Below are positions 4,647-17,849 of a stretch of DNA of 64,000 bases, piece by piece. Position 1 is the stretch's first letter. Each line of letters starts with the position of its first letter. Source of the DNA: Actinospica robiniae DSM 44927. GTDB lineage: Bacteria > Actinomycetota > Actinomycetes > Streptomycetales > Catenulisporaceae. The position numbers were made by a program, and so were the translations under genes. The notes under the pieces were generated by a model. The model ran no database searches. It was not told where the DNA came from and saw nothing but the letters and a program-made list of their open reading frames with translations. The stretch lies in contig NZ_KI632511.1 of the NCBI RefSeq assembly GCF_000504285.1, positions 3,779,372-3,843,371 of the forward strand, read 5' to 3'.

Positions 4647-4813
4647 ATGGAAGCCACAGACTCCTCAAGCATTGCCCGACGCCACAGGACCATCAACTGA
4701 TCGCCGCGTCAGACGGCGCTCGTCAGCGAAAAGCCCGCCCGCCACGCCGCGCCGGCGCTAGATTCGTAACAGGAGCCACCTGTCGCAGAGTGCTGCCGAG
4801 AGCGAGGACCTCT

Positions 4814-6220
4814 ATGCCCGCCGCCGCACCGACGTGTGCCGACGCCGTCATGGTCCTGCCGGGAATCATGGGCAGCGAACTGGTGGAGGTGGAGACTGGA
4901 CGCGTGCTGTGGGGGCTGGCCGACCCCGGCTGGTACGTCCGTGCCTGGACGACGGGCGGTTCACTCTCCGCGTTGCGGCCTACACCGGAAGAGCTCGAGG
5001 GCCACGGCAGCCGCATCGCCGCGACGCGGCTGTTGCGGTTCCCGGCGTTCGCGCCCATCCTGCGCGGAGCCGAGCCGTACACCAAGCTCGTTGACGCCCT
5101 GGGACGCGTCGCCGCGCATCCGGCCGCAGTCGCCACGTTCCCGTACGACTGGCGCCTGCCCGTGTCGGTCAATGCGCGGCTGCTCGCCGAGGCGGCGCAG
5201 ATGCACCTGGCTGCGTGGCGCGCCCATCCGGCCTGCCGCGCGGACGAGGTGCGGCTCGTGCTCGTCGCGCACTCCATGGGCGGCCTGATCGCGCGTCACT
5301 TCACCGACGAACTCGGCGGCGGAGAACTCGTTCGCACCGTCGTCACCCTCGGCACGCCGTTCTTCGGATCCGTCAAGGTGCTGAGCATGTGGAATTCCGG
5401 ACGCGGCGGACCGGTTCCGTTGCCGCATCGGCGCCTGCGCGATCTGGCCGCGTCGCTGCCGTCCGTGCACGATCTGCTTCCGACGTACCGCTGCGTGGAC
5501 GAGGGCGGCGACCGGCCGGCCCGACGGCTCACCCGCGCGGACGTCGCCGCGGCGGGCGGCGATGCCGAGCTGGCGGGTGCGGCGCTCGAACGGCGGCCCG
5601 AGCGGGCGCCCGGGCTCGGCCCGTCCACCCGTATGGTCGTCGGAGTCAGCCAGCCCACCGGCCAAAGCGTCAGCTTGCGCGACGGTGTGGTGACCGAGCA
5701 CCGGCACATCTGCCAGGACACCGCCGACGGCGGTGTGCGACGGGTGGACCGGGGCGGAGATTCGACTGTGCTCCGTGAAGCGGCCGCGCTTCCCGGCATC
5801 GAACCCGTCTACTTCGCGCAGTCGCACGGCGGACTGCCCGGCGCCGACGAGGTCGTGGAGTACGTGCGCGCCGTCCTGACAGAGCAACCGCTGGGTCCGC
5901 CTCTCGGGGCGGTGGAACTCGGGCTGGATGTGCCCGATGTGGCCGTCGCCGGACAGCCGTTCCCCGTGACGGTCCACCTCAGCACGGATCCGGCCGAGCT
6001 CGGGAGCTCGTCGGCGACGGTGCGCTGCCGTGTCGTGTCGGGAGCCGCGAACACTCCGGTGGCGCGCCCGCTGCTGCGGCGATCCGGCGCCGCGACGCTC
6101 ACCGGGACCGTGCTCGTGGACCGGCCGGGGGTCTATGCCCTCGAAGTCAAGGCGGGCGGCGGGTCCGCGGTGCGTCAGCTGGTCCTCGTGGTGCCGGCCT
6201 CCGATACCGACGACCGCTGA
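4814..6220 (+). CDS. LCAT/PDAT-like alpha/beta-hydrolase (lipase or acyltransferase)
   Basis: 468 aa. The N-terminus has the lecithin:cholesterol acyltransferase signature VLPGIMGSEL, then FPYDWR and the nucleophile elbow VAHSMGG (Ser about 154). The likely acid is Asp about 316 in GGDSTV and the base His about 338 in QSHGG, giving a complete triad. No signal peptide is seen, so it probably acts in the cytoplasm. The last ~100 residues (from VPDVAVAGQPFPVTVH) look like an immunoglobulin-type beta-sandwich. Start at ATG 4814 is chosen for the GAGGA before it; an ATG eight codons upstream is possible. Only 9 bases separate it from the caspase/NTPase/WD40 gene, so the two are probably co-translated and the lipase may be the effector or target of its partner. 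Confidence 0.82.
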   Translation: MPAAAPTCADAVMVLPGIMGSELVEVETGRVLWGLADPGWYVRAWTTGGSLSALRPTPEELEGHGSRIAATRLLRFPAFAPILRGAEPYTKLVDALGRVAAHPAAVATFPYDWRLPVSVNARLLAEAAQMHLAAWRAHPACRADEVRLVLVAHSMGGLIARHFTDELGGGELVRTVVTLGTPFFGSVKVLSMWNSGRGGPVPLPHRRLRDLAASLPSVHDLLPTYRCVDEGGDRPARRLTRADVAAAGGDAELAGAALERRPERAPGLGPSTRMVVGVSQPTGQSVSLRDGVVTEHRHICQDTADGGVRRVDRGGDSTVLREAAALPGIEPVYFAQSHGGLPGADEVVEYVRAVLTEQPLGPPLGAVELGLDVPDVAVAGQPFPVTVHLSTDPAELGSSSATVRCRVVSGAANTPVARPLLRRSGAATLTGTVLVDRPGVYALEVKAGGGSAVRQLVLVVPASDTDDR

Positions 6221-6229
6221 GATCGCCCG

Positions 6230-9200
6230 ATGCAGGAGGGCGACGCAGCGTTCGATGTCGTGCCGATTCCCATCGGGGAGTACGCACATCACGAGAGCGT
6301 GCCGGCCGACGAGGAAGCGGCCGGGGTGCTCGAGCTGTTGGGCCGGCTCGGCGGTCGTGGCCTGCCCTGGCCGATCGATGCGGCCGAGCGGCACCAGACC
6401 AGCGTCGCCGAGCGGCTCGCCGCGTGGTCTTCGTTCGAGGGATACGGCCTGCGCGCTTGCCGCAGCTCGGTGCTGTACTGGGTCGGCCATGGTGCCTCCG
6501 ATGGAGACGACGCTTGGCTGGCTACGTTTCGCACGACCGCTCGGATGGGCGGCACGGCCATGCGGCCGGACGCGCTGGCCGACCACATCATGGAGGAATG
6601 GCGCTCGCGCGCCGAAGCCTGGGCCGGGCAAGACGATCCGGACGCCGAGCACCATCCGGACGCCGACCACGACGCGGACGGTGAGCCGTGGGCCTTGGTC
6701 GTCATCGAAGCCTGCGGCGCCGCGCGTTTCGTCGAACGCCTCGGCGCCGCGCTTTTCACCCGTCCCGATCCGCCACGCCGACTCGCCCTGATCGGTATCG
6801 GCGGCTACGGCACCGCGTTCCTCGGCGAGTTCCGCACGGCACTCCGCCTGACCGTGGAGTCCTACACGGACAACGACGAGAGCATCCGGTTGCGCGATCT
6901 CATCGGCCGGCTCCAGGAACGCCTGCCGTCGAGCACGGTCATCGAGTTCCCCGAGCTCCACCGCGCTCGGCCGATCCGCCATAACAGGGTATTGGCCTCG
7001 GTCGCGGCGCCGCTCGACGTCTACCAGCAGCTGCGGGCCTTCGTGGCCGCGCTGCCGGCGGACCAGCGCGGACACTTCATCCCGAGTGCGCTCGGGGCCG
7101 AGCAAGGGGAATTGGCCTGGTACTTCGTGGGGCGCAAGGCCGAGCTCGACACGATCGCCGCGTGGCTGAACGGGGCCGCGCAGGGAATGTTCGTGGTCAC
7201 CGGGCCGCCCGGGGTGGGTAAATCGGCTCTGCTCGGCAACCTCGTCCTTCAGTCCGACTACGAACTGCGAACCCTGATAAGCCGCGCCGCCCAGGAGTCC
7301 GGCGGACCGGCTCCGGCGACCGCCAACGTACTCGCCGCGGGCACTTTCGACGCGGTGGTCCATCTGACCGGGCTGACCGTCGCAGGCGTCGTAGACCGGA
7401 TCGCCACGGCCGTCGGCGAGCCGTCGGCTTCGGTCAGCACTGATCCCCGCGAAGCGGCCGAGCGACTCATCCGGCGGCTGCAGGAGCGATCGGCGCAGGT
7501 GGGCGGCTCGGGCGGCGGAGGGCCGCGACCGCTGACGGTTCTGGTCGACGCGCTGGACGAGGCCCAGGAGCCGCTGGCGGTCGCCGCGTCTCTGCTGCGT
7601 CCGCTCGCGGCGGTGCCGGGCTGCCGGGTCGTGGTCGGCACCCGGGCGTCGACCCGAGAGGGCCCGGACCGGCCGGCGCCGCCGGACCAGGACCTGCTCG
7701 ACGCGCTCGGGACGTCGGCGCGGACACCCGTGCTCGACGTCTCCCAGGATCCGGACTCCGTCGCCGACTTCGTCCGGCGCAGACTCTCCGCGGCACGCGA
7801 CCAGGCGAAGCTCGAGGTCTCCGACGACCGGATCGAACAGATCGCGGACCGAGTCCGGGTGAACGCGAGCTCGTTCCTCTTCGCCCGGTTGCTCATCCAT
7901 GAGATCACTGCCCGCCCCGAGCTGGTGGAGCAGCGCAACTCCGATCGGCTGCTGGCCCTGTCGGACAGCTCGTATCTCGCGCTGTTCGCGGCCGCGGTCG
8001 ACCGGCTGACGGCCGGATCGCCGAAGGCCGCCGGGCTGCTGTCCGCGCTGGCGCTGTCCCAAGGACGCGGCCTGCCGCGCGCCGACCGCATCTGGGCGGC
8101 CGCGGGGGGAGCGCTCGGCGCAACCGTCGTCACCGAAGCAGACATCGATGTCCTGCTCGACAATGCGGCGCCCTACATCATGCTCGACGGCGAGGACGGC
8201 GGCAGCGTCTACCGGCTCGCGCACCGTACGTTTCAGGAGTACTTCGCCGCGACCCTGCCGGCGCCGGTCCCCTCGAACCCGCAAGACGCCCACGCCGCGA
8301 TCGCGACGGCGCTGGCGGCCCTGGCGCGAGCGTCACGTCCCCGGCAACCGGGCGCCTATATCGTCAGACATCTGACAGCGCATGTCGCCATCTCCGACGA
8401 GTGGCCGCTGCTGAGCCGAGACACGCGACTGCTCGATGCCCTCGACCCCGACGCGGTCGCGGCCGACATGCTGCGCGCGAAGTTCGGCGCGGCGCGGGTG
8501 TCCGACGAGGTGGCGGCGGTCCTCAGCGCCCGGCACCTGCTCCGGACCCTCCCGGTGGCGCAGCGCGCGCTGGTACGCGAGATCGCGCAGGCGCGACTGT
8601 CCGGCGACACGACGCGCGGCGCCGCTCTGCGTTGGGCTTGTCTGCGCAGCGAGCCGCTTCACCTGGTGATGACCGGTCACGTCGGAGCCGTGCTGGCGCT
8701 CGCCGTCGTTCCGCTGCCGGACGGCCGCACATTGCTCGCCAGCGCCGGAGCGGACGGCACGGTAAGGCTCTTCGACACCGCCACCGGCTGGTCCGTGGGC
8801 GAGCCGCTGACCGGGCACGCCGGCGCCGTCAGTGCCCTGGCACCGTTGAGCCCGGGATCGAACGGCGGCCGCGCCCATCTGGCCAGCGCGGGTGTGGACG
8901 GCACGATCAGGCTGTGGGACTGCGTCACCGGACGCCAGCTCGGCGCACCCCTGCGCGAGCACACCGCGGCCATCAGGACCCTCGTGACGGACGGCTCCTG
9001 GCTGGCCAGCGCCGACGATCACACCGTGCGGCTGTGGACGAACCCGGAACAGTACCGGGAAGGGCAGTCGGTCACCAGGGAGAGCGAGACCGTCGACGCG
9101 TTGGCGATGGTCCCGAACCTGGGCCGCGGCGTACTCGCCGCCGTGGTCGGCGGCAGACGGATCAAACTGTGGGAGCTCAGAACGCTTCGCCCGCACGGCG

Positions 9201-10528
9201 ATCTCGCGCACTCCTCGCTCACGGCGCTCACCCGAATCGCCAAAGTGGACGCAGCCGACGGCAGCTGCGCGGTCGTGGTCGCGTCGGCGCGCAAGATGTG
9301 GCTGCTCGATCCCACCGCGGCGGAAGCCACGTCAGAGGCTCAGCCGCTCGATCCGGGTGCCGTGTCCGCCTTGGCGCAGGTTCAGGATCCCGACCGCACG
9401 CTTCTGGCCATCGCGGGCGTACACGCCGCCATCCGGCTGTGGGACGCGTCCGCAGACCACGCTGTCGGAGCGCCGCTGACCGGCCACTCCGGTCCGGTGC
9501 GGGCCCTGGCCGCGGTGTCCGTCGGGGCGGACCGTTCCCTGCTCGCGTCCGCGGGCGAAGACGGCACGGTGCGGCTCTGGGACGCCCGGCCGCGAGGCTC
9601 CGGCGAGCCTTCCGCGGCCCGGCTCGGGCACGAGGACTGGGTGGGCGCAGTGGCCGCCCGCGCCATGCTGCCGACCGGGCGCACGGTGCTGGCCACCGCC
9701 AGCGACGACGGGACGGCCCGGCTGTGGGACGCGGACACCGGCGAACTCCTGCAGAAACTGCTCCTCGGCCACAGTGACTGGGTCCGCGCGGTCACCTTCG
9801 GCCGTTCCTGCGCAACCGTCTGGACCTGTGGCTGGGACGGCGCGATCCGGCAGTGGGACGGCGAGACCGGCGTGCAGACCGGTGGAGTGCGGCTCTCCGG
9901 CTCCGATCGGCTGGAGGCGATGGCCGCCATCCCGGACGGCACGGGCGGCGACGGCGAGATCGTCGCGGTCGGCGGCAGCGGACGGACGATCCGGCTCTGG
10001 GAACCGGGGAGCACACAGACCTCCCGAGCCGCCCTGTCCGGCCACACCGGAACCATCCGCGCGCTCGCCTCCCTCGGCGCCGACCGGCTGGCCAGCGCCG
10101 CTGACGACGGGACCATCCGGCTGTGGGATCCGCGCGTCCCCTCCTGCTCAGCCGTCCTGCGCGGACACCGCGGGCCGGTGAATGCGCTCACCATGGTGCC
10201 GGGAGACGGCGGCCTGCTGGCGTCGGCCGGCCACGACCGGACGCTGCGGCTGTGGGACCCGGTGACCCGCCGGTGCGAGCTGACCATTCCGTTCGCACAC
10301 AAGGGAGCGGTGAGCGCGCTGTGCGTTCTCGGCGAGCCCGCGGACACGGACGGAGCGCCGCTGCTCGTGAGCGCCGGCGAGGACGCGACGCTGCGGCTGT
10401 GGCACGCGGCCTCGGGCCGGCTCCTCGGCACCGCGGTCCTGGGCGTCTCGGTGCGCGGCATCGCGCCGGTCGGCGCGCGCGGAGTGGCCGTGGCCGCCGA
10501 GGCGGGCGTCCTCGTCATCGATCTCTGA
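6230..10528 (+). CDS. Caspase-like/NACHT-type NTPase/14xWD40 signalling protein
   Basis: 1432 aa with three parts. Residues ~1-270 are a caspase-like (clan CD) domain: YWVGHGA supplies His 87 and VVIEACGAA supplies Cys 162, the expected His-Cys dyad. Residues ~300-640 are a STAND/NACHT-type NTPase: GPPGVGKS at 325-332, Walker B-type VLVDALDEA near 440, and a helical region ending in RLAHRTFQEYFA, typical of NACHT proteins. From ~800 to the end I count 14 WD40 repeats, most ending in xGTxRLWD; that is two seven-bladed propellers. The plan matches the NTP-dependent biological conflict systems of actinobacteria, where propellers sense, the NTPase oligomerises and the peptidase fires. No clear ribosome site precedes the ATG; translation is probably coupled to the lipase gene. 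Trigger and substrate are unknown. Confidence 0.88.
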   Translation: MQEGDAAFDVVPIPIGEYAHHESVPADEEAAGVLELLGRLGGRGLPWPIDAAERHQTSVAERLAAWSSFEGYGLRACRSSVLYWVGHGASDGDDAWLATFRTTARMGGTAMRPDALADHIMEEWRSRAEAWAGQDDPDAEHHPDADHDADGEPWALVVIEACGAARFVERLGAALFTRPDPPRRLALIGIGGYGTAFLGEFRTALRLTVESYTDNDESIRLRDLIGRLQERLPSSTVIEFPELHRARPIRHNRVLASVAAPLDVYQQLRAFVAALPADQRGHFIPSALGAEQGELAWYFVGRKAELDTIAAWLNGAAQGMFVVTGPPGVGKSALLGNLVLQSDYELRTLISRAAQESGGPAPATANVLAAGTFDAVVHLTGLTVAGVVDRIATAVGEPSASVSTDPREAAERLIRRLQERSAQVGGSGGGGPRPLTVLVDALDEAQEPLAVAASLLRPLAAVPGCRVVVGTRASTREGPDRPAPPDQDLLDALGTSARTPVLDVSQDPDSVADFVRRRLSAARDQAKLEVSDDRIEQIADRVRVNASSFLFARLLIHEITARPELVEQRNSDRLLALSDSSYLALFAAAVDRLTAGSPKAAGLLSALALSQGRGLPRADRIWAAAGGALGATVVTEADIDVLLDNAAPYIMLDGEDGGSVYRLAHRTFQEYFAATLPAPVPSNPQDAHAAIATALAALARASRPRQPGAYIVRHLTAHVAISDEWPLLSRDTRLLDALDPDAVAADMLRAKFGAARVSDEVAAVLSARHLLRTLPVAQRALVREIAQARLSGDTTRGAALRWACLRSEPLHLVMTGHVGAVLALAVVPLPDGRTLLASAGADGTVRLFDTATGWSVGEPLTGHAGAVSALAPLSPGSNGGRAHLASAGVDGTIRLWDCVTGRQLGAPLREHTAAIRTLVTDGSWLASADDHTVRLWTNPEQYREGQSVTRESETVDALAMVPNLGRGVLAAVVGGRRIKLWELRTLRPHGDLAHSSLTALTRIAKVDAADGSCAVVVASARKMWLLDPTAAEATSEAQPLDPGAVSALAQVQDPDRTLLAIAGVHAAIRLWDASADHAVGAPLTGHSGPVRALAAVSVGADRSLLASAGEDGTVRLWDARPRGSGEPSAARLGHEDWVGAVAARAMLPTGRTVLATASDDGTARLWDADTGELLQKLLLGHSDWVRAVTFGRSCATVWTCGWDGAIRQWDGETGVQTGGVRLSGSDRLEAMAAIPDGTGGDGEIVAVGGSGRTIRLWEPGSTQTSRAALSGHTGTIRALASLGADRLASAADDGTIRLWDPRVPSCSAVLRGHRGPVNALTMVPGDGGLLASAGHDRTLRLWDPVTRRCELTIPFAHKGAVSALCVLGEPADTDGAPLLVSAGEDATLRLWHAASGRLLGTAVLGVSVRGIAPVGARGVAVAAEAGVLVIDL

Positions 10529-10545
10529 CGCGGACCGGAGGCGGC

Positions 10546-12372
10546 TCAGCCGCGTGGTGCGGCGTCGCGACGGGCGATCTCAAGCTTGTGCAGCCGACGC
10601 AACACCTCGAGCGCTTCCGCTTGGGCGACACCGGGCCGCTCCTCCAACTGCGCGCGAGCGAGCGCGAGTGCGTCGGCGATCCCCTGCAGCTCCTCCTGCA
10701 GCGGGTTGGACACGGACGGCACGACGAGCTGTTCCCGGCTCAGCATGTGCTCGGCCTCGCTGAGCAGGTCCGCGGCCACCTCCGCGACCCGTGAGCTGCG
10801 CAACGGCGGGGCGACCAGCATCGCAGCGGCCTGCAGATGGGCGTCCACGACGCGGGCGGTCATGGCCCACGAGATCGGCAGCCCGCGGGGGTCGGTCGGC
10901 GGTTCGGGTCCGGAGAACGGCTGCAACGGCGCATCCCACAGCCCGCTCATCGGGCCCCACTGATGGACCCGACGGCCGAAGTGCTCGAAGATCTGGTCGG
11001 CGAGCGCGGTCAGCCGGTCCCTGGAGCGCAGGTCCCGCGTCGCCGTCGCCGCGACGATGGCCGCGTCGAGCAGGAGCGCGGCGTAGTCCCGCATGCGCAG
11101 CACCAGCGCCGGGCCGAAGGCGTCGCTGCCGGCCAGGGACACCGGCAGACCCGGGGCGTGCAGCTGGATCTGCGGATCGTCCGGCCGGTTCGCCCGCCGC
11201 GAGATCCGGCCGAGAACCGCCAGCTCCTCGAGCACGGGGATCATCCGGGCCAGCTCCTCGTCCGGCGCGCGGCGTTCCACGAGGTCCTCCAGCGTGAGCG
11301 TGGCGATCAGCAGGCTGAAGTACTCGGAGGACTCGCCGTCGGACGCGGTCCAGGGCACGGCCTCGAGCGGCCAGGACGCGTTCCCGAAGCGGGCCAGCGT
11401 GGACCAGAAGCGCCGGGTGAGATCCGCACGCACCTGCAGGCCCTGGACGAGTGCCTGCTGCTCCGGGTCGAGAAGGCCGAGCACGCGGGTGCGCTGCGAC
11501 GACAGTTCCCTGACAGCCGCGGTGACGGCCACCGTGGCGTGCAGATCCGGAACACCGGCATCTTCGGCCCGCTTATCCGCAACCCCGCCACCTTCGCCCC
11601 AAGCCCAGCCGCATTCGAACAGGAAGCGCTCGTTGTCCAGATCGCGCAGGTCGTCATCGTCCGGCCGGATGTCGACCAGCGCCGCCCGGATACCCCGCAA
11701 TTGTTCCGCCAGAGCGGACAGGCGCTGTACCCGGGCGACCGAGGGCACGGCCAGCACACGCAGGACGGCCTGCGCCTCGTCGCTCTCCACTGCGTGAGTC
11801 CGCACGACGAAGCACCGGTGCAGCCCTTGGAGCGCGGCGTCGAGCCGGATCCGCGCCGACGTCTGGACCCTGGCCGCCTGGTGCCGGACCTCGTGGCGCG
11901 CGTCCAGACGCAGGGACGCCGAATCGAACGCCTGCAGGAAGTCGAGCGCCGACAGGCACAGATGCACCGAGACGGCATAGGCCTCCACCAGAGCGGGTAC
12001 CGCCTGCTCGCGGGTGAGCGGCCTGCCCTCTTCCGTCTCCAGCGAGGTGTGCGAAGAGAAGACCGGTGTGCCCTCGTCGTCAGCGTATTCGGTGAGGTAT
12101 TCGTCCAGCGCCGCCGCGAGGCGCCGCGGGATGGTCATGCTGTCGCCCATCGCGCGCAACGCCGAGAGCGCGTCGTCCTGGATTCCATTGGGGTCGTCCA
12201 GTCGCAGATCCTTGAGCGCACCCGAGGGGCGTAGCAGGCACAGCAGCAACTGCGCGTCCCGGATCGAGTCGCGTTCCTCCCGCACACCCCAGTTCCACGC
12301 CCCGTCCCGGAACACGGCTACCGCGGTGTGACGCCAGATCTCGAGCAGAGCGCGCCTGGGCTCGGTGAGCAT
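10546..12372 (-). CDS. SCO2524-like large protein, paralogue B
   Basis: 608 aa, function unknown. It is an obvious paralogue of the 620-aa protein at 13301-15163: both share an N-terminal E(I/V)W...W block followed by DAxLLLC(I/L)L, then GDSxxIPR, SVHLC, E(L/C)GW(T/A)WG, LGLLDPEQ and (Y/F)WSTLARF. These blocks resemble the SCO2524 family of Streptomyces, named only for its representative. It is mostly alpha-helical by composition and has no signal peptide or membrane segment. Third gene of a tight operon, 5 bases after the variant P-loop gene. It ends 17 bases from the convergent WD40 gene, with a small GCGGCT/AGCCGC palindrome between them. Confidence 0.75.
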   Translation of the reverse strand: MLTEPRRALLEIWRHTAVAVFRDGAWNWGVREERDSIRDAQLLLCLLRPSGALKDLRLDDPNGIQDDALSALRAMGDSMTIPRRLAAALDEYLTEYADDEGTPVFSSHTSLETEEGRPLTREQAVPALVEAYAVSVHLCLSALDFLQAFDSASLRLDARHEVRHQAARVQTSARIRLDAALQGLHRCFVVRTHAVESDEAQAVLRVLAVPSVARVQRLSALAEQLRGIRAALVDIRPDDDDLRDLDNERFLFECGWAWGEGGGVADKRAEDAGVPDLHATVAVTAAVRELSSQRTRVLGLLDPEQQALVQGLQVRADLTRRFWSTLARFGNASWPLEAVPWTASDGESSEYFSLLIATLTLEDLVERRAPDEELARMIPVLEELAVLGRISRRANRPDDPQIQLHAPGLPVSLAGSDAFGPALVLRMRDYAALLLDAAIVAATATRDLRSRDRLTALADQIFEHFGRRVHQWGPMSGLWDAPLQPFSGPEPPTDPRGLPISWAMTARVVDAHLQAAAMLVAPPLRSSRVAEVAADLLSEAEHMLSREQLVVPSVSNPLQEELQGIADALALARAQLEERPGVAQAEALEVLRRLHKLEIARRDAAPRG

Positions 12373-12377
12373 CTCGG

Positions 12378-13304
12378 TTACCTCTCCTCGTCCCTGAATC
12401 GCGCGAATCGCAACATCGACGCCAGGTGTCGATAGGCGTAGAGAGTCTGCTGATTCGCGACGCCGATCGCGTACACGTCGCGCGAGGTGATCAGCTGCTC
12501 GCGCCGCAGCAGCACCGGCTCCTGCGGGATCGAACCGAGCCGGACGTCCCGGCCGATACGGTGCAGTGAAGCCAACCGCTCGAGGTCGCGGTCCATCTCG
12601 AGCTGCCAGGCCAACTGCGCGGGACGCAGGGACGCCGCGATCCCCGCGTCCAGATCGGCGGCCGCGACACGGACGTACTCGAGCGACGCTTCGAGTTCTG
12701 CGGAATCCAGGCCGCAGGCGATGCCCGTTCTGACCAGCCCGTGGTCACCGAAGACGTACTGGGCCGTACTCAGCACCTCGTATCGGGACCATCGGTGGAA
12801 GACCAGCCACCGCGTCCTGGCCGAGCGCAGATAAGGAACGGCGACGGAGAGCAAGGCCAACTCGATCAGGGCGGACCGGCCGGGGCCGAGGTCCACGAAG
12901 GAGACGTCGAAGGTCTCCTCGAGGCGGAACAGGAAGTCGGCGAACCGGCTGACCTCGCTATCCGTGATCTGGATCAGCGCCTCGCCCGCAGAGGAGTACA
13001 AGACCATCGCGCCCGCCCCGAGCAGGCGGTCGAGGCTGCGCCGTTCGGTGTTCGCCCAGACATCGATGCCGAGCGGCTCGGCGGCCCGACCGTACAGGTA
13101 AGCGTTCAGGCCCCGGTCCCGCAGCCTGTGCCGCAGGCCCGGCTCGATGTCGAAGACCAGGTCGGCAGCGGGTGACGGGAAGCCGAGATCCACCAGGCAC
13201 GTGCTCACGCCCGTCAGGGAACTGTGATAAGCGAGGTTGGCGGCGGTCACCGTGGTACCGACACCCCCCTGCGCGGAGAGGCAGAACACGAGCATCCCGG
13301 TCAA
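12378..13304 (-). CDS. ParA/MinD-like protein with degenerate P-loop (SCO2523-like)
   Basis: 308 aa. The N-terminus has the layout of a MinD/ParA-type SIMIBI ATPase (hydrophobic strand, P-loop, AANLAYHSSLTG helix, then TCLVDLGFPSP and later SFVDLGPG). However, the loop reads SAQGGVGTTVT where active members have KGGxGK(T/S): both the signature lysine (to Gln) and the P-loop lysine (to Thr) are gone. Nucleotide hydrolysis is therefore doubtful. This matches the SCO2523 'variant P-loop' family. The ATG overlaps the previous stop (ATGA) and the stop is 5 bases before the next start, so three products are probably made together. It may act as a nucleotide-independent scaffold; this is inference. 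Confidence 0.8.
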   Translation of the reverse strand: MTGMLVFCLSAQGGVGTTVTAANLAYHSSLTGVSTCLVDLGFPSPAADLVFDIEPGLRHRLRDRGLNAYLYGRAAEPLGIDVWANTERRSLDRLLGAGAMVLYSSAGEALIQITDSEVSRFADFLFRLEETFDVSFVDLGPGRSALIELALLSVAVPYLRSARTRWLVFHRWSRYEVLSTAQYVFGDHGLVRTGIACGLDSAELEASLEYVRVAAADLDAGIAASLRPAQLAWQLEMDRDLERLASLHRIGRDVRLGSIPQEPVLLRREQLITSRDVYAIGVANQQTLYAYRHLASMLRFARFRDEER

Positions 13305-15163
13305 ACCGCCCGGGACGCGTCGGCACGCGCCATGCCGATCATGTCCAACTCGTGCAGCACCGTGACCACGAGGGCGATCGCGCTGGCCGGCTGGCCGTCG
13401 ACCAGGTCCTTCGCCCGGTTCACCGCCGATTGCAGTTCCTGCAGAGCGCTCTGGAACGGGGTGCTGAGAGCTGCGGCGCGGATGAGCTCCTGGTTGAGCA
13501 GGTCTCCGGCTTCACTGACCATCGCCTCCGCCATACTCCCGAGCCCGGAAGCGCGGCTGACCCGGGTCGCCTGCGCCGACCAGGTGGCGACCAGCGCGTC
13601 CACCACGTGATAAGTCGCGGCCAGGGACGGAGCCGCCGACTCGGCTGGAGGCAGCTCGGGGAAGACCCGGCCCGGGTCGTCCCACAGGCCCAGCGCCGGG
13701 CCTCCGGTGAAACTACGGGCACGGAGATGGCCCCAGATATTCGCGGCGTGCTGGAAGAGCTGGTCGCGCACCGTCGTGCTCGCGGTCAGCCCGGCCAGTT
13801 CAACCGTCCGCTTGAGCAGGGCGGCGGCGAAATCGGTCACCCGCCAGCGCGGCTCCTCGCCGTCCGGCTCCCAGCGGCCGGGCAGAGCGAGGCCGATACC
13901 AGGATGGTGCAGGTCGAGAGCCTGGTCCCCACGCAGCGGACGACGAGTGATGCGCGAGCGCTCCGCCAACTCCTCGAGCAGGGGTACGAGCCTTGCCACA
14001 TCGTCCTCGTTCGCGGCGCGGATACGGACGTCGCCGATGACGACACCGCACATGAGCAGCGTGAAGTAGTCGGACTCCACTCCGTCTGTCGCACGCCAGG
14101 GAATGTCCTCGACCGGCCAGTACTCCTCGTCGAACCGCGCCAGCGTCGACCAGTACAGCCGGCACAGATCACGGCGAATGAGCAGAGCATTGGCCAACCT
14201 CTCCTGCTCGGGGTCGAGAAGACCGAGCACGCGGGTGGATTCCGATTCGAGCTGACCGATGGCGTCCAGCACCTCCATGGTGAAGTGCAGGTCGGGCGTG
14301 GATTGCGCGAGCCCCTCGCGCTGGATTGAAGCCGACCTCTCGCCGTCCTCGTACAACTCGATGCGCGGGGCGGAATCGGCCACCCCCCAGGTCCATCCCA
14401 GCTCGAACAGCAGGTTGGGGTTGTCGAGCTCCTCGAACCGGGCGACGCCGAGACGTGCCTCGCTCAGGCGCGCGCGCACCACCGCCATCTCGTCGTTGAA
14501 CCTCGTGATCAGCTCGTACCTGGTGGCGCTGCCCTGATCGAGCATCGCGAAGAGGTCCTGGCCCTCGCTGGAGTCGGGCTCGATGGGATTCATGCAGAAG
14601 CTGCGGAGCAGGCCGACGAGGGCTTGGGTGAGCCGGCTGCTGATCCGCAAGATGAGACGGTCGACACGAGCGGCCATCACGCCGCGGGCCGCGGAGGACC
14701 GGTAGGTCGTGGTGAACGCGAGCGCGGCGATGCACAGGTGTACAGAAATCGCGTGCGAAGCGGTCAGCTCAATCTCGCGCTGTTGCCGTGTCAGGGCCGT
14801 GCCGAAGTCGGCGAGGGCGAGAAGAGGGCCGGCCGAGAAGTCGGCCGCGCCATCCGGCAGCGTATATCGCTCGCAGAACTCCTCGAGGGCCTGGACAATG
14901 CTTCGAGGTATCTGGGTGCTGTCACCGAGCGGCGCCAGAGCCGCGAGCACATCCTCTGAGGTGTCGTTCGGATCCGACAAGGCGAGTTCGGGTATCGCGG
15001 TAGCCGGAAGCAGAATGCAGAGAAGGAGTTCGGCATCGCTGACGGAGTTGCCGGCGACCACACCGTCCCACCGCCACCGTCGGTCGGCGTACACGTGGCG
15101 GGCCAGCGCCTGCCAGACTTCGATGATCTCCCTGCGCGGCTGAATGCCCTGCGTCCTCGGCAT
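13301..15163 (-). CDS. SCO2524-like large protein, paralogue A
   Basis: 620 aa, first gene of the variant P-loop operon. The N-terminus (RREIIEVWQALARHVYADRR) and NSVSDAELLLCILLPA resemble SCO2524-family proteins. A central block LGLLDPEQERLANALLIRRD and YWSTLARFDEEYWP matches paralogue B almost word for word in layout. No transmembrane helix, signal peptide or known catalytic motif was recognised. Expression probably starts from the 15164-15400 intergenic region. Confidence 0.75.
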   Translation of the reverse strand: MPRTQGIQPRREIIEVWQALARHVYADRRWRWDGVVAGNSVSDAELLLCILLPATAIPELALSDPNDTSEDVLAALAPLGDSTQIPRSIVQALEEFCERYTLPDGAADFSAGPLLALADFGTALTRQQREIELTASHAISVHLCIAALAFTTTYRSSAARGVMAARVDRLILRISSRLTQALVGLLRSFCMNPIEPDSSEGQDLFAMLDQGSATRYELITRFNDEMAVVRARLSEARLGVARFEELDNPNLLFELGWTWGVADSAPRIELYEDGERSASIQREGLAQSTPDLHFTMEVLDAIGQLESESTRVLGLLDPEQERLANALLIRRDLCRLYWSTLARFDEEYWPVEDIPWRATDGVESDYFTLLMCGVVIGDVRIRAANEDDVARLVPLLEELAERSRITRRPLRGDQALDLHHPGIGLALPGRWEPDGEEPRWRVTDFAAALLKRTVELAGLTASTTVRDQLFQHAANIWGHLRARSFTGGPALGLWDDPGRVFPELPPAESAAPSLAATYHVVDALVATWSAQATRVSRASGLGSMAEAMVSEAGDLLNQELIRAAALSTPFQSALQELQSAVNRAKDLVDGQPASAIALVVTVLHELDMIGMARADASRAV

Positions 15164-15408
15164 GCCCCCACCCTGCGTCGCCTACCGTGTGACCGATGCT
15201 CTCACGTCAAGCGATCCCACGCGGGCCGTCCGCTCAAACCGAGACGACAGTCGGCACCCCACAGCCCTCACTCGCCTCCAGGACTCGCGGCGGGCTGTGT
15301 ACCCACCGCACAAACCACGTCAGTGAGCATATGAAACTCAAGCACCACCCGTCTTCATCAGCTCTCTCACTGGCATAGACGGGCCCTGATTCCGCGGCTC
15401 CCGCTCGA

Positions 15409-15483
15409 ACGCTCATCATTCCGAATGCCGAGGGAGCCCGCACCACTCCGTCGATGGTCGCGTTCGCCCGGGACGGCCGCGTG
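15409..15483 (+). pseudogene. DnaK (Hsp70) relic
   Basis: Reading from 15409, codons give TLIIPNAEGARTTPSMVAFA followed by RDGRV. This is the highly conserved region just after the N-terminal ATP-binding loop of DnaK (usually xIPNAEGxRTTPSVVAFAxxGE). There is no start or ATP-binding loop upstream and the frame becomes meaningless after 15483. It is a remnant of about 25 codons, not a working chaperone gene. Confidence 0.7.
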
Positions 15484-15665
15484 ACAGCGCCGAGCCCAAG
15501 TCGGCGCGCATGCACGCATGCGATCCGATCGATGTCGGCGACCACGGTGAGCCGTCAGTCGGCTGGTTCGACGTTGAACTCGGAACGAAAGCAGTGCTCG
15601 CCCCGGATTTCCGCTCGTTCGTGGAGCAACTCACGCGCCGAGCGGAACTCAAGAAGCTGACATGA
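15483..15665 (+). pseudogene. C-terminal relic of an unidentified (SMI1/KNR4-like?) protein
   Basis: A short in-frame stretch ending at the TGA at 15663-15665 reads GEPSVGWFDVELGTKAVLAP then DFRSFVEQLTRRAELKKLT. The pattern (aromatic-acidic turn, then hydrophobic helix SFxxFVEQL) resembles the C-terminus of SUKH/SMI1-KNR4 immunity proteins. No upstream start fits. The family assignment is tentative. Confidence 0.35.
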
Positions 15666-15736
15666 CGGTCCAGCCGGCCGCGCCGTGGCCCGGGCGGAGC
15701 CGCCGGCCAGCACCGATGCGAACTCCAGGGCCGGCC

Positions 15737-15773
15737 TTGACAGCGAAAGCTAATGCGAGTAGCTTTTGAGCTA
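15737..15773 (+). promoter_or_regulatory. Promoter with overlapping AGCTA operator
   Basis: TTGACA at 15737-15742 and TAGCTT at 15760-15765 are separated by 17 bases. The -10 lies inside TAGCTtttgAGCTA (15760-15773), and another AGCTA sits at 15748-15752. The three alternating half-sites suggest binding by the TetR regulator encoded at the end of this two-gene operon. Confidence 0.55.
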
Positions 15774-15810
15774 TCAGCAGTAGCCGAGACCGTCCCACCA
15801 GGAGACCAAG

Positions 15811-16668
15811 ATGACCCAGACTCAGCACCTGAAGACCGCCGGCGGCGCCCTCGCCTATGACGTCACCGGAACCGGGCCGCTCATCGTGCTGGCGCCCGGC
15901 ATCGGCAACCAGCGCACGGTCTACCGCCACCTCGCGCCGCTGCTGGCGGCCGCCGGCTACCGGGTGGCGCGCATGGACATCCGCGGCCACGGCGAGTCGA
16001 GCATGGGCTGGACCTCTTACAACGGCGGCCAGGCGATCTCGCGCACCGACGTCGCCGGTGACCTGCTCGATCTGATCCGCCATCTCGGCGGCCCCGCCGT
16101 GATCGTCGGGCACTCGATCTCCGGCGGGGCAGCCACCATCGCGGCCGCCACAGCCCCCGAACTGGTCAGCGCCGTCGTGGAGGTCAACCCCTTCACCCAG
16201 GTGCAGCACGCGGACCTCGCTGCGCTGTTCACGGTGCGGCGCTACCGCAGGGGTGCGATCGCCCTGACGGGCACCGCGCTCTTCAAGAGCCTGCGGATCT
16301 GGCGGCACTATCTCGACGTGGCCTACCCGATCAAGCCCGCCGACTACGCCGAGGACATCGCCGCGATGACCGCGAACCTGCGCGAGCCGGGGCGGATGGC
16401 CGAGTTCATCAAGACGTCCAAGTCCACTCCCGCGGACGCTGAAGCACAATTGCCGAACGTCAAGTGCCCGGCGCTGATCATCATGGGCGACGCCGACCCG
16501 GACTTCGCGGACCCGCGAGCCGAAGGCGAGGCCATCGTCGCCAAGATGCCCGCGGGTGCGGGTCGGCTGGCAATGGTCGAGGGCTCCGGGCACTACCCGC
16601 ACGTCGACTCCGCCGACCGAGTCGCAGCGCTGATCGTCGAGTTTCTCAACGGACGAGTCGGTGCCTAG
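15811..16668 (+). CDS. Alpha/beta-hydrolase
   Basis: 285 aa, single hydrolase-fold domain. Nucleophile elbow GHSISGG, acid in GDADPDFADP and base in GSGHYPHVD are visible. ATG 15811 follows AGGAGACC. The gene overlaps the following TetR gene by 8 bases, so the regulator probably controls this operon. The substrate is not predictable; the family covers esterases, haloperoxidase-like and C-C hydrolases. Confidence 0.88.
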   Translation: MTQTQHLKTAGGALAYDVTGTGPLIVLAPGIGNQRTVYRHLAPLLAAAGYRVARMDIRGHGESSMGWTSYNGGQAISRTDVAGDLLDLIRHLGGPAVIVGHSISGGAATIAAATAPELVSAVVEVNPFTQVQHADLAALFTVRRYRRGAIALTGTALFKSLRIWRHYLDVAYPIKPADYAEDIAAMTANLREPGRMAEFIKTSKSTPADAEAQLPNVKCPALIIMGDADPDFADPRAEGEAIVAKMPAGAGRLAMVEGSGHYPHVDSADRVAALIVEFLNGRVGA

Positions 16669-17284
16669 GACCGGGTTGAGCAAAGCCGAGGTCATCGCCG
16701 AGGGTGCCGCACTCGCTGATGACGTCGGCTTTGCCGCCCTGGCGATGGCCCCGCTGGCCCAGCGGCTCGGCGTTCGCCCGCCGTCGCTCTACAAGCACGT
16801 GGCCGGGCTCGCGGAACTGCAGCACGGCATTGCGACGCTCGCGATCACCGAGCTCGACCGGTCGGTGCGCGTGGCCGTGCACGGCCTGTCCGGACCCGAC
16901 GCGCTGGCAGCCCTCATCAGGGCCCTACGTGACTACGCGCTCGCCCACCCCGGCCGCTATGCGGCGACCATCGGCGAGAAATCCACCGGTCCGAACGACC
17001 CGCTTCTGTGCGCCGGCAACCGGATCATCGAGGTCATGACCGCGGTGCTACGCGGCTACCGGTTGGGCGAGGACGACATGGTGCACGCGCTGCGCCTGCT
17101 GCGCTGCGTCTTCCATGGATTCGCGTTGCTCGAGCTCGGACAGGGATTCCGGCGGCAGGACAGTCAAGAATCGAGTTTCGCGTGGATGATGGGTTGCCTC
17201 GACCGGGGGCTAGCCTCCCGCTCGCAGCCAGCATCACCGCGACCGACGACCTGCGTTGCCGCGCACAGCGCCCCGGCAGACTAG
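16661..17284 (+). CDS. TetR/AcrR family regulator
   Basis: 207 aa. N-terminal helix-turn-helix reads FAALAMAPLAQRLGVRPPSL followed by YKHV, the TetR signature. The C-terminal part (LRDYALAHPGRYAATIGEK) resembles the WHG-type ligand domain. Starts at GTG inside the last codons of the hydrolase gene, so translation is coupled and the regulator probably represses its own operon through the AGCTA sites near 15750-15773. Confidence 0.85.
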   Translation: MPRTGLSKAEVIAEGAALADDVGFAALAMAPLAQRLGVRPPSLYKHVAGLAELQHGIATLAITELDRSVRVAVHGLSGPDALAALIRALRDYALAHPGRYAATIGEKSTGPNDPLLCAGNRIIEVMTAVLRGYRLGEDDMVHALRLLRCVFHGFALLELGQGFRRQDSQESSFAWMMGCLDRGLASRSQPASPRPTTCVAAHSAPAD

Positions 17285-17330
17285 GTACGCCTCACTGGAC
17301 GACCTCAAGCCATCGCGCTCGAGCCCGGAC

Positions 17331-17849
17331 TCACACCGACGCACCACCTCGGCGTGCCGCGGCAATTCTCCTGTTGTAGACGGCATCACCGCCAAGCCGC
17401 AGATCCCAAGGAACCAAGCGGTCGAACAGTGCCCACTCCGGGCGCTCGCCGATATCCGCGAGCCAGGCATCACGCGCCTCCGAAGCCCCGGCGGCCTCCC
17501 ATTCGAGGAACGAGCGAACCTCGAGAAGTTCGGGCGTCGGCCGATACGCCACCTCGCACTCGACCTGGACAAGCCCACCGCCGGCGGTATCAGGTTGGGC
17601 GAACCAGCGGGCCGTGCGCACCGTGAACGTCGTCTCACCATAGAACATGCGCGTCCCGTACCCGTAGAACAGCACGTCTGCTGCGGGCACGTCCCAGGTT
17701 GCGACCGGGCGTGCGGCCATCGCCCGGAAAGCCTGCAGTGCCTGGAGCGCGGTTGACCCCTCGTCTTTGCAGTCCTCCCAGTCCAGCAGCGACTTCCACG
17801 CCCCGGCGACTCCTGTCGGGAAATCGGATACTCCGCGCTGCGTGTCCAC
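17331..17849 (-). CDS. Hypothetical protein
   Basis: 172 aa, no family recognised. Soluble, acidic and Trp-rich (WKSLLDWEDCKDEG, WDVPAADVLFYGYGTRMFYG). Codon usage fits this strand rather than the overlapping antisense frames. It ends 46 bases after the convergent TetR gene. Confidence 0.5.
   Translation of the reverse strand: MDTQRGVSDFPTGVAGAWKSLLDWEDCKDEGSTALQALQAFRAMAARPVATWDVPAADVLFYGYGTRMFYGETTFTVRTARWFAQPDTAGGGLVQVECEVAYRPTPELLEVRSFLEWEAAGASEARDAWLADIGERPEWALFDRLVPWDLRLGGDAVYNRRIAAARRGGASV

Follow-up and report, generated by a model that had tools for sequence, protein, structure and literature searches.

A pseudo-P-loop protein of the SCO2523 family encoded between two SCO2524-family paralogues in Actinospica robiniae

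The stretch of Actinospica robiniae DSM 44927 DNA analyzed here, referred to as the window, is 64,000 nucleotides long and is numbered from its first letter. Within positions 15163..10546 it carries three intact open reading frames on the minus strand, in the order B-P-A. The middle gene, P, encodes a member of the SCO2523 family, and the flanking genes B and A each encode a member of the SCO2524 family.

B, 13301..15163, minus strand: SCO2524-family protein of 620 residues, predicted (alpha/alpha) toroid; 634.8 bits to profile NF040567; model confidence (predicted local distance difference test, pLDDT) 89.5.
P, 12378..13295, minus strand: SCO2523-family pseudo-P-loop protein of 305 residues with a predicted ParA/MinD fold; 273.1 bits to profile NF040564; model pLDDT 89.6.
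A, 10546..12372, minus strand: second SCO2524-family protein of 608 residues, the more divergent paralogue; 556.4 bits to NF040567.

Counted from the ATG of P at 13295, five nucleotides separate B from P (13300-13296), and another five lie between P and A (12377-12373), the latter spacing being as given in a preliminary description of the locus. That description also had P translated in overlap with B, which requires a TTG start at 13304. The ATG at 13295 aligns with a methionine in 16 of 16 alignment rows and leaves the 5-nucleotide gap, and the TTG is the less likely start. A stretch that resembles a ribosome-binding site when judged by eye, GAGGAGAGG, ends 8 nucleotides upstream of the ATG of A. 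Guanine-plus-cytosine content at third codon positions (0.88 for A, 0.87 for P, and 0.84 for B, with 0.85-0.90 in three neighboring genes) places all three frames at the level of coding genes.

Family membership was assigned with the curated profiles and their own cutoffs. Both B and A match NF040567 over their full length and above its cutoff of 300 bits, and P matches NF040564 over profile positions 1-296 of 305 and above its cutoff of 200 bits. As A and B align end to end with 36% identity (E 4e-107), the homology of the two large proteins, already proposed from the sequence, is not in doubt. The closest relative of B is the single SCO2524 protein of Actinospica durhamensis (50% identity), and the best identity for P is 45%, taken from the best 80 of 400 relatives, a set from which records of its own genome may be excluded. 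P shares invariant core residues with the SCO2523 family, for example in RWLVFHRW, but where the usual form is DKGGTGRS it has AQGGVGTT, and D38 is lost. Within the SCO2524 family, the locus is distinguished by having two members for one SCO2523 gene, one before it and one after it.

The P-loop of P reads MLVFCLSAQGGVGTTVT. ParA/MinD ATPases carry a deviant Walker A motif, KGGxGK[ST], with both lysines, and P does not match this motif, having Q9 and T14 at the lysine positions. The early remark that the P-loop, SAQGGVGTTVT, is without its lysines is thus confirmed, whereas the companion statement that active members need two lysines misfits the SCO2523 family. Where P has SAQGGVGTT, the family has SDKGGTGRS. 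A scan of genome_contigs gave 400 relatives, of which the best 80 supplied the loci examined, and DKGGTGRSV is present in all 80; one of the two scan patterns covers the arginine, allowing R or T, which makes that position a biased sample, while the preceding D and K lie outside the pattern. Among 57 distinct proteins drawn from the genome samples with the whole-family profile, DKGGTGRS is present in 53 and the arginine in 55. As a family, SCO2523 proteins thus already have arginine for the P-loop lysine, fitting the curated name "variant P-loop," and P is new in that the signature lysine still kept by the others is gone, together with a switch-I aspartate.

Four of the 57 proteins depart from DKGGTGRS, namely P, L018 (HKGGTGRS), L030 (DNGGTGRS), and an orphan family member (L035/L039; GKGGAGQT). 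P departs furthest, with D8A, K9Q, R14T, and D38G; in the family's DFDFGSP stretch it has glycine for the second aspartate. In L030 only the signature lysine is lost, and this SCO2523 protein has its own SCO2524 beside it. A structure-based alignment of all 42 nonredundant SCO2523 proteins (from the 80) shows how far the divergence extends. Of the 99 positions conserved in at least 97% of these relatives, 37 are lost in P, including D8, K9, T12, R14, S15, D38, and G40; in a leave-one-out control a single relative of the 42, that of A. durhamensis, lost six or more conserved positions (15 of 104). Residues kept in P include G10, G11, G13, T17, D36, D135, G139, R140, and S141.

The arrangement was then placed against 296 genomes of the class, 391 of the order, 14 of the family, and the 80 named loci; these samples overlap and their counts are not additive, and at most four candidates per genome were scored in the class sample and at most three in the order sample. 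One and the same set of 33 among the 296 class genomes has SCO2524 and SCO2523, each above its cutoff. Both are present in all 14 family genomes, they are adjacent in 80 of 80 scan loci, and SCO2524 occurs in 90 of the 391 order genomes. Each of the 80 loci has one SCO2524 gene, in agreement with the earlier expectation that a single partner is the rule elsewhere. In the class and order samples alike, three SCO2524 genes were scored in the genome of the window only, and neither the 80 named loci nor any further genome in the samples showed two partners around one P-loop gene.

Several apparent duplicates were examined and set aside. In three of the 80 loci the SCO2524 gene is split into two frames, which are complementary pieces of one gene (profile positions 3-433 and 435-610 in L150, 3-261 and 258-611 in L167, and 3-142 and 204-610 in L172), reflecting either real frameshifts or sequencing errors. 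The two matches in G003 and in G546 are complementary or overlapping parts of one protein, and the second match in G290 is fragmentary and below the cutoff. True pairs of SCO2524 genes occur in ten genomes of genus g3, every one of them beside its own SCO2523. In nine of these ten genomes (for example, at L038) the two SCO2524-SCO2523 pairs share a contig, oppositely oriented within a span of about 12 kb, and in G009 they lie on two contigs; the two pairs come from two different branches of the family tree.

In the canonical order SCO2524 is directly upstream of SCO2523, and in the 80 loci the pair is accompanied by relatives of SCO2522 (80 loci), SCO2521 (79), SCO2525 (71), and a GNAT gene (60). 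The SCO2523/SCO2524 core is common to the Streptomyces coelicolor operon sco2521-sco2526 and to the A. robiniae cassette, but a search of the window at E 1e-4 detected no relative of SCO2521, SCO2522, SCO2525, or the GNAT gene. The same genome has a canonical-type locus elsewhere (L037), with DKGGTGRS and with relatives of SCO2521, SCO2522, and the GNAT gene; an SCO2525 relative was not detected at that locus.

Phylogeny gives additional insight into the origin of the two partners. Two rows shorter than 550 residues (L088 and L103) were dropped from 58 to leave a 56-row SCO2524 set, and the careful trees used 22 of these 56 rows and 22 of 57 for SCO2523. B groups with the SCO2524 proteins of G003, which we take to be A. 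durhamensis, and of G001 (support, 100/99), and A is sister to this trio (95/96). A recent tandem duplication of the partner was discarded as an explanation, since a tree with A and B as a sister pair is rejected (p-AU 0.00125), with the caution that the branch of A is long. The partner, described earlier as duplicated, was therefore not copied afresh in place; A and B are paralogues that separated long ago. A-P-B may be an ancient arrangement that has disappeared in other genomes, or else an old paralogue was moved next to B-P. P joins the SCO2523 proteins of A. durhamensis and G001 (91/86, not starred), a placement that is unsure because its branch is long, and its grouping with the orphan L039 protein was weakly rejected (p-AU 0.039). 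Measured in changes per column, the end branch of P has a length of about 2.9-3.0, compared with 1.36 for that of A and 0.62 for that of B.

The structure predictions place P close to known proteins and SCO2524 more loosely. The model of P matches Helicobacter pylori Soj (Z 22.8; root mean square deviation [rmsd], 2.8; 240 aligned residues), and its best Foldseek E is 8.4e-9, so that its predicted fold is like that of the ParA/MinD/Soj ATPases even though the KGGxGK[ST] motif is missing. For B the top match is a cellobiose 2-epimerase (Z 19.1, rmsd 4.1, 340 aligned), followed by complement C3 (Z 18.8, rmsd 3.6, 282 aligned), a GH76 mannanase (Z 17.6, rmsd 4.0, 315 aligned), and drimenyl diphosphate synthase (Z 16.2, rmsd 4.3, 281 aligned). 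What these matches share we take to be an (alpha/alpha) toroid, outside of which fall the residues of B after about position 540. That SCO2524 is a toroid is likely but not firm, given that mostly helical models have a stated Z baseline of about 14, which the top match exceeds, and that the Foldseek result is weak (best E 1e-3, TMq 0.36). An SCO2524 alignment gave one weak match only to sequences of solved structures (E 0.031), a viral structure search gave no match at E ≤0.001, and hhalign found no match between the SCO2524 alignment and one Streptomyces open reading frame.

Conservation in the partners was read from a structure alignment of 35 of 53 nonredundant locus proteins (from the 77 of 80 that are full length). 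B has lost 14 and A 24 of 106 conserved positions, compared with 16 of 118 in A. durhamensis and 13 of 112 in L169, the most altered of the 35 relatives. By these counts the changes in B do not go beyond those of a canonical relative, whereas those in A do, and P has changed the most of the three. Both A and B keep the family residue at 26 polar or aromatic positions that are shared by 97% or more of the 35 relatives, among others W17, E254, W257, W259, W338, W349, E352, W356, H419, H479, R483, W494, and D495. Such a set would suit a ligand-binding or active site.

Taken together, the cassette could derive from the core of the actinobacterial SCO2521-SCO2525 operon, as a divergent copy that has been stripped down and rewired. 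P keeps the predicted ParA/MinD fold and most of the conserved core of its family, and, to judge from its residues, it most likely neither hydrolyzes nor stably binds ATP, because the signature lysine, the arginine at the position of the P-loop lysine, and the switch-I aspartate have all been lost. In the canonical operon, it could be speculated that an SCO2523 protein that is responsive to nucleotide, or already weakened in this respect, holds one SCO2524 protein, possibly as a symmetric dimer of pairs. Here P may instead work independently of nucleotide, as a scaffold or adaptor that brings the two different partners B and A together in a single asymmetric complex. We give about an even chance to this interpretation, in which a pseudo-ATPase bridges two toroid partners within a rewired paralogous core. 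It is consistent with the persistence of three full-length frames despite long end branches and with the 5-nucleotide gaps on both sides of P. The residue losses in P, the 26 positions kept in both partners, the joint occurrence and adjacency of SCO2523 and SCO2524, and the canonical-type locus at L037 speak for it as well.

A number of observations weigh against a bridging pseudo-ATPase. The losses in P are not concentrated at the nucleotide site (11 of 24 conserved positions in residues 4-43 and 26 of 75 elsewhere; Fisher p 0.34), so that P looks broadly and fast diverged rather than like a protein in which catalysis was lost and the surface kept; a selective loss of the nucleotide site is not supported by these counts. 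Conserved polar or aromatic positions have also been lost in the partners, nine in A and six in B. As the arrangement is seen in one genome only, nothing shows that it is retained by selection. A could act without P, and the orphan SCO2523 protein at L039, which has no SCO2524, indicates that pairing within the families is not absolute.

The same orphan protein brings up a different possibility, namely, that the cassette belongs to a conflict system, with P as an inactive MinD/ParA-like module of the kind found in actinobacterial VMAP-type immunity operons and with a defensive role that is perhaps shared with an adjacent pair of genes encoding an LCAT-like hydrolase and a STAND-WD40 protein. 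At L039 (G004:C1:4383000-4402000, 8654-17639) the orphan (355.9 bits) stands at the end of a VMAP-type operon in a genome of the same family, directly 3' of and overlapping an SAV_2336-N/CHAT gene. Upstream of these lie genes for an AAA_5 ATPase, which we take to be MoxR-like, for a caspase/VMAP-C protein, and for a protein with only a subthreshold esterase match. According to Kaur et al. 2020 (PMC7159879), a MinD/ParA-like domain that is predicted to be inactive is the commonest cell-division-related effector domain of VMAP systems. A ParA-like protein predicted to be inactive is common to those ternary systems and to the cassette, and an orphan family member lies inside such an operon, which suggests that the SCO2523 family was recruited more than once as a noncatalytic part; the partners in A. 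robiniae, however, are SCO2524 proteins, and the Pfam matches listed for the window neighbors scanned (25 of 46 in the case of the WD40 protein) include no MoxR, vWA, VMAP, or caspase family.

We consider a conflict system unlikely. The cassette does lie tail-to-tail with the STAND-WD40 gene, but the hydrolase/WD40 pair behaves as a module of its own. Relatives of the WD40 protein's N-terminus occur in 5 other of the 296 class genomes, with a hydrolase relative adjoining in 5 of 5, and in 0 of the 13 other family genomes, compared with SCO2524 in 14 of 14. A functional link was set aside, as the pair occurs without SCO2524 beside it, in loci of which about 3-4 kb were seen. None of the three proteins had a PADLOC match at E 1. 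Nor is there a sign of mobile origin: P was unmatched in plasmid or phage records and A in plasmids (E 1e-5), and the SCO2524 alignment had no match in viral contigs.

The cassette might also be a decaying, functionless second copy, which would accord with the branch of P being by far the longest in its tree, with the many and scattered losses in P, and with the absence of the operon neighbors here when a canonical-type locus exists elsewhere in the genome. This is distinctly improbable in view of the three full-length frames, their coding third-position composition, their family-like starts and ends, and a B protein that has changed no further than the lone SCO2524 of A. durhamensis. It is likewise quite doubtful that there is no ternary complex and that B pairs with P while A works alone or with the SCO2523 of the canonical-type locus elsewhere in the genome. 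As the older of the paralogues, A is found on the side of P that is unusual, given that SCO2524 canonically precedes SCO2523, but it is only 5 nucleotides from P and presumably cotranscribed with it. Finally, it is very unlikely that P, though lacking the lysines, still binds nucleotide and serves as a slow switch or a sensor, as the residues it keeps (G10 to S141, listed above) are offset by the joint loss of D38, the signature lysine, and the arginine found at the position of the P-loop lysine.

With its nucleotide residues gone and B little altered, the cassette is a natural variant that could serve to test whether nucleotide is needed. SCO2523 and SCO2524 are common in actinobacteria, and the literature search returned no paper naming either, and none bringing together at least two of Actinospica, the variant P-loop, ParA-like proteins, and pseudo-ATPases, in line with the earlier statement that the function of the family is undescribed. 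One report assigns the S. coelicolor operon sco2521-sco2526 to the HupS regulon and calls SCO2525 necessary for normal growth (PMC11472566), and another describes SCO2525 as a putative methyltransferase with a morphogenetic role (PMC6344877). It is conceivable, as a tentative idea that we think improbable, that SCO2523 and SCO2524 form a machine so far undescribed, whose ParA-like component would position or gate an (alpha/alpha)-toroid partner, perhaps enzymatic, during filamentous actinobacterial growth, and that in this genome the ParA-like component has become a nucleotide-free hub with two different toroids. With the folds predicted here, what was annotated as "hypothetical protein" becomes a pair open to testing: on one side a ParA fold whose P-loop is altered, on the other a toroid in which polar and aromatic residues are conserved. 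Of most use are the correction of the family P-loop, the SCO2523-SCO2524 pairing, and the tentative toroid fold of SCO2524, and A-P-B is a new arrangement, seen in one genome, within a known but functionally open family.

The hydrolase/WD40 pair occupies 4790-10528 of the window on the plus strand, with the LCAT-like hydrolase gene (4790-6220) directly before that of a 1,432-residue protein combining AAA_16 and WD40 repeats, and it looks like a separate module. Pfam gave no match for the N-terminus of the latter protein, which appears caspase-like by eye only.

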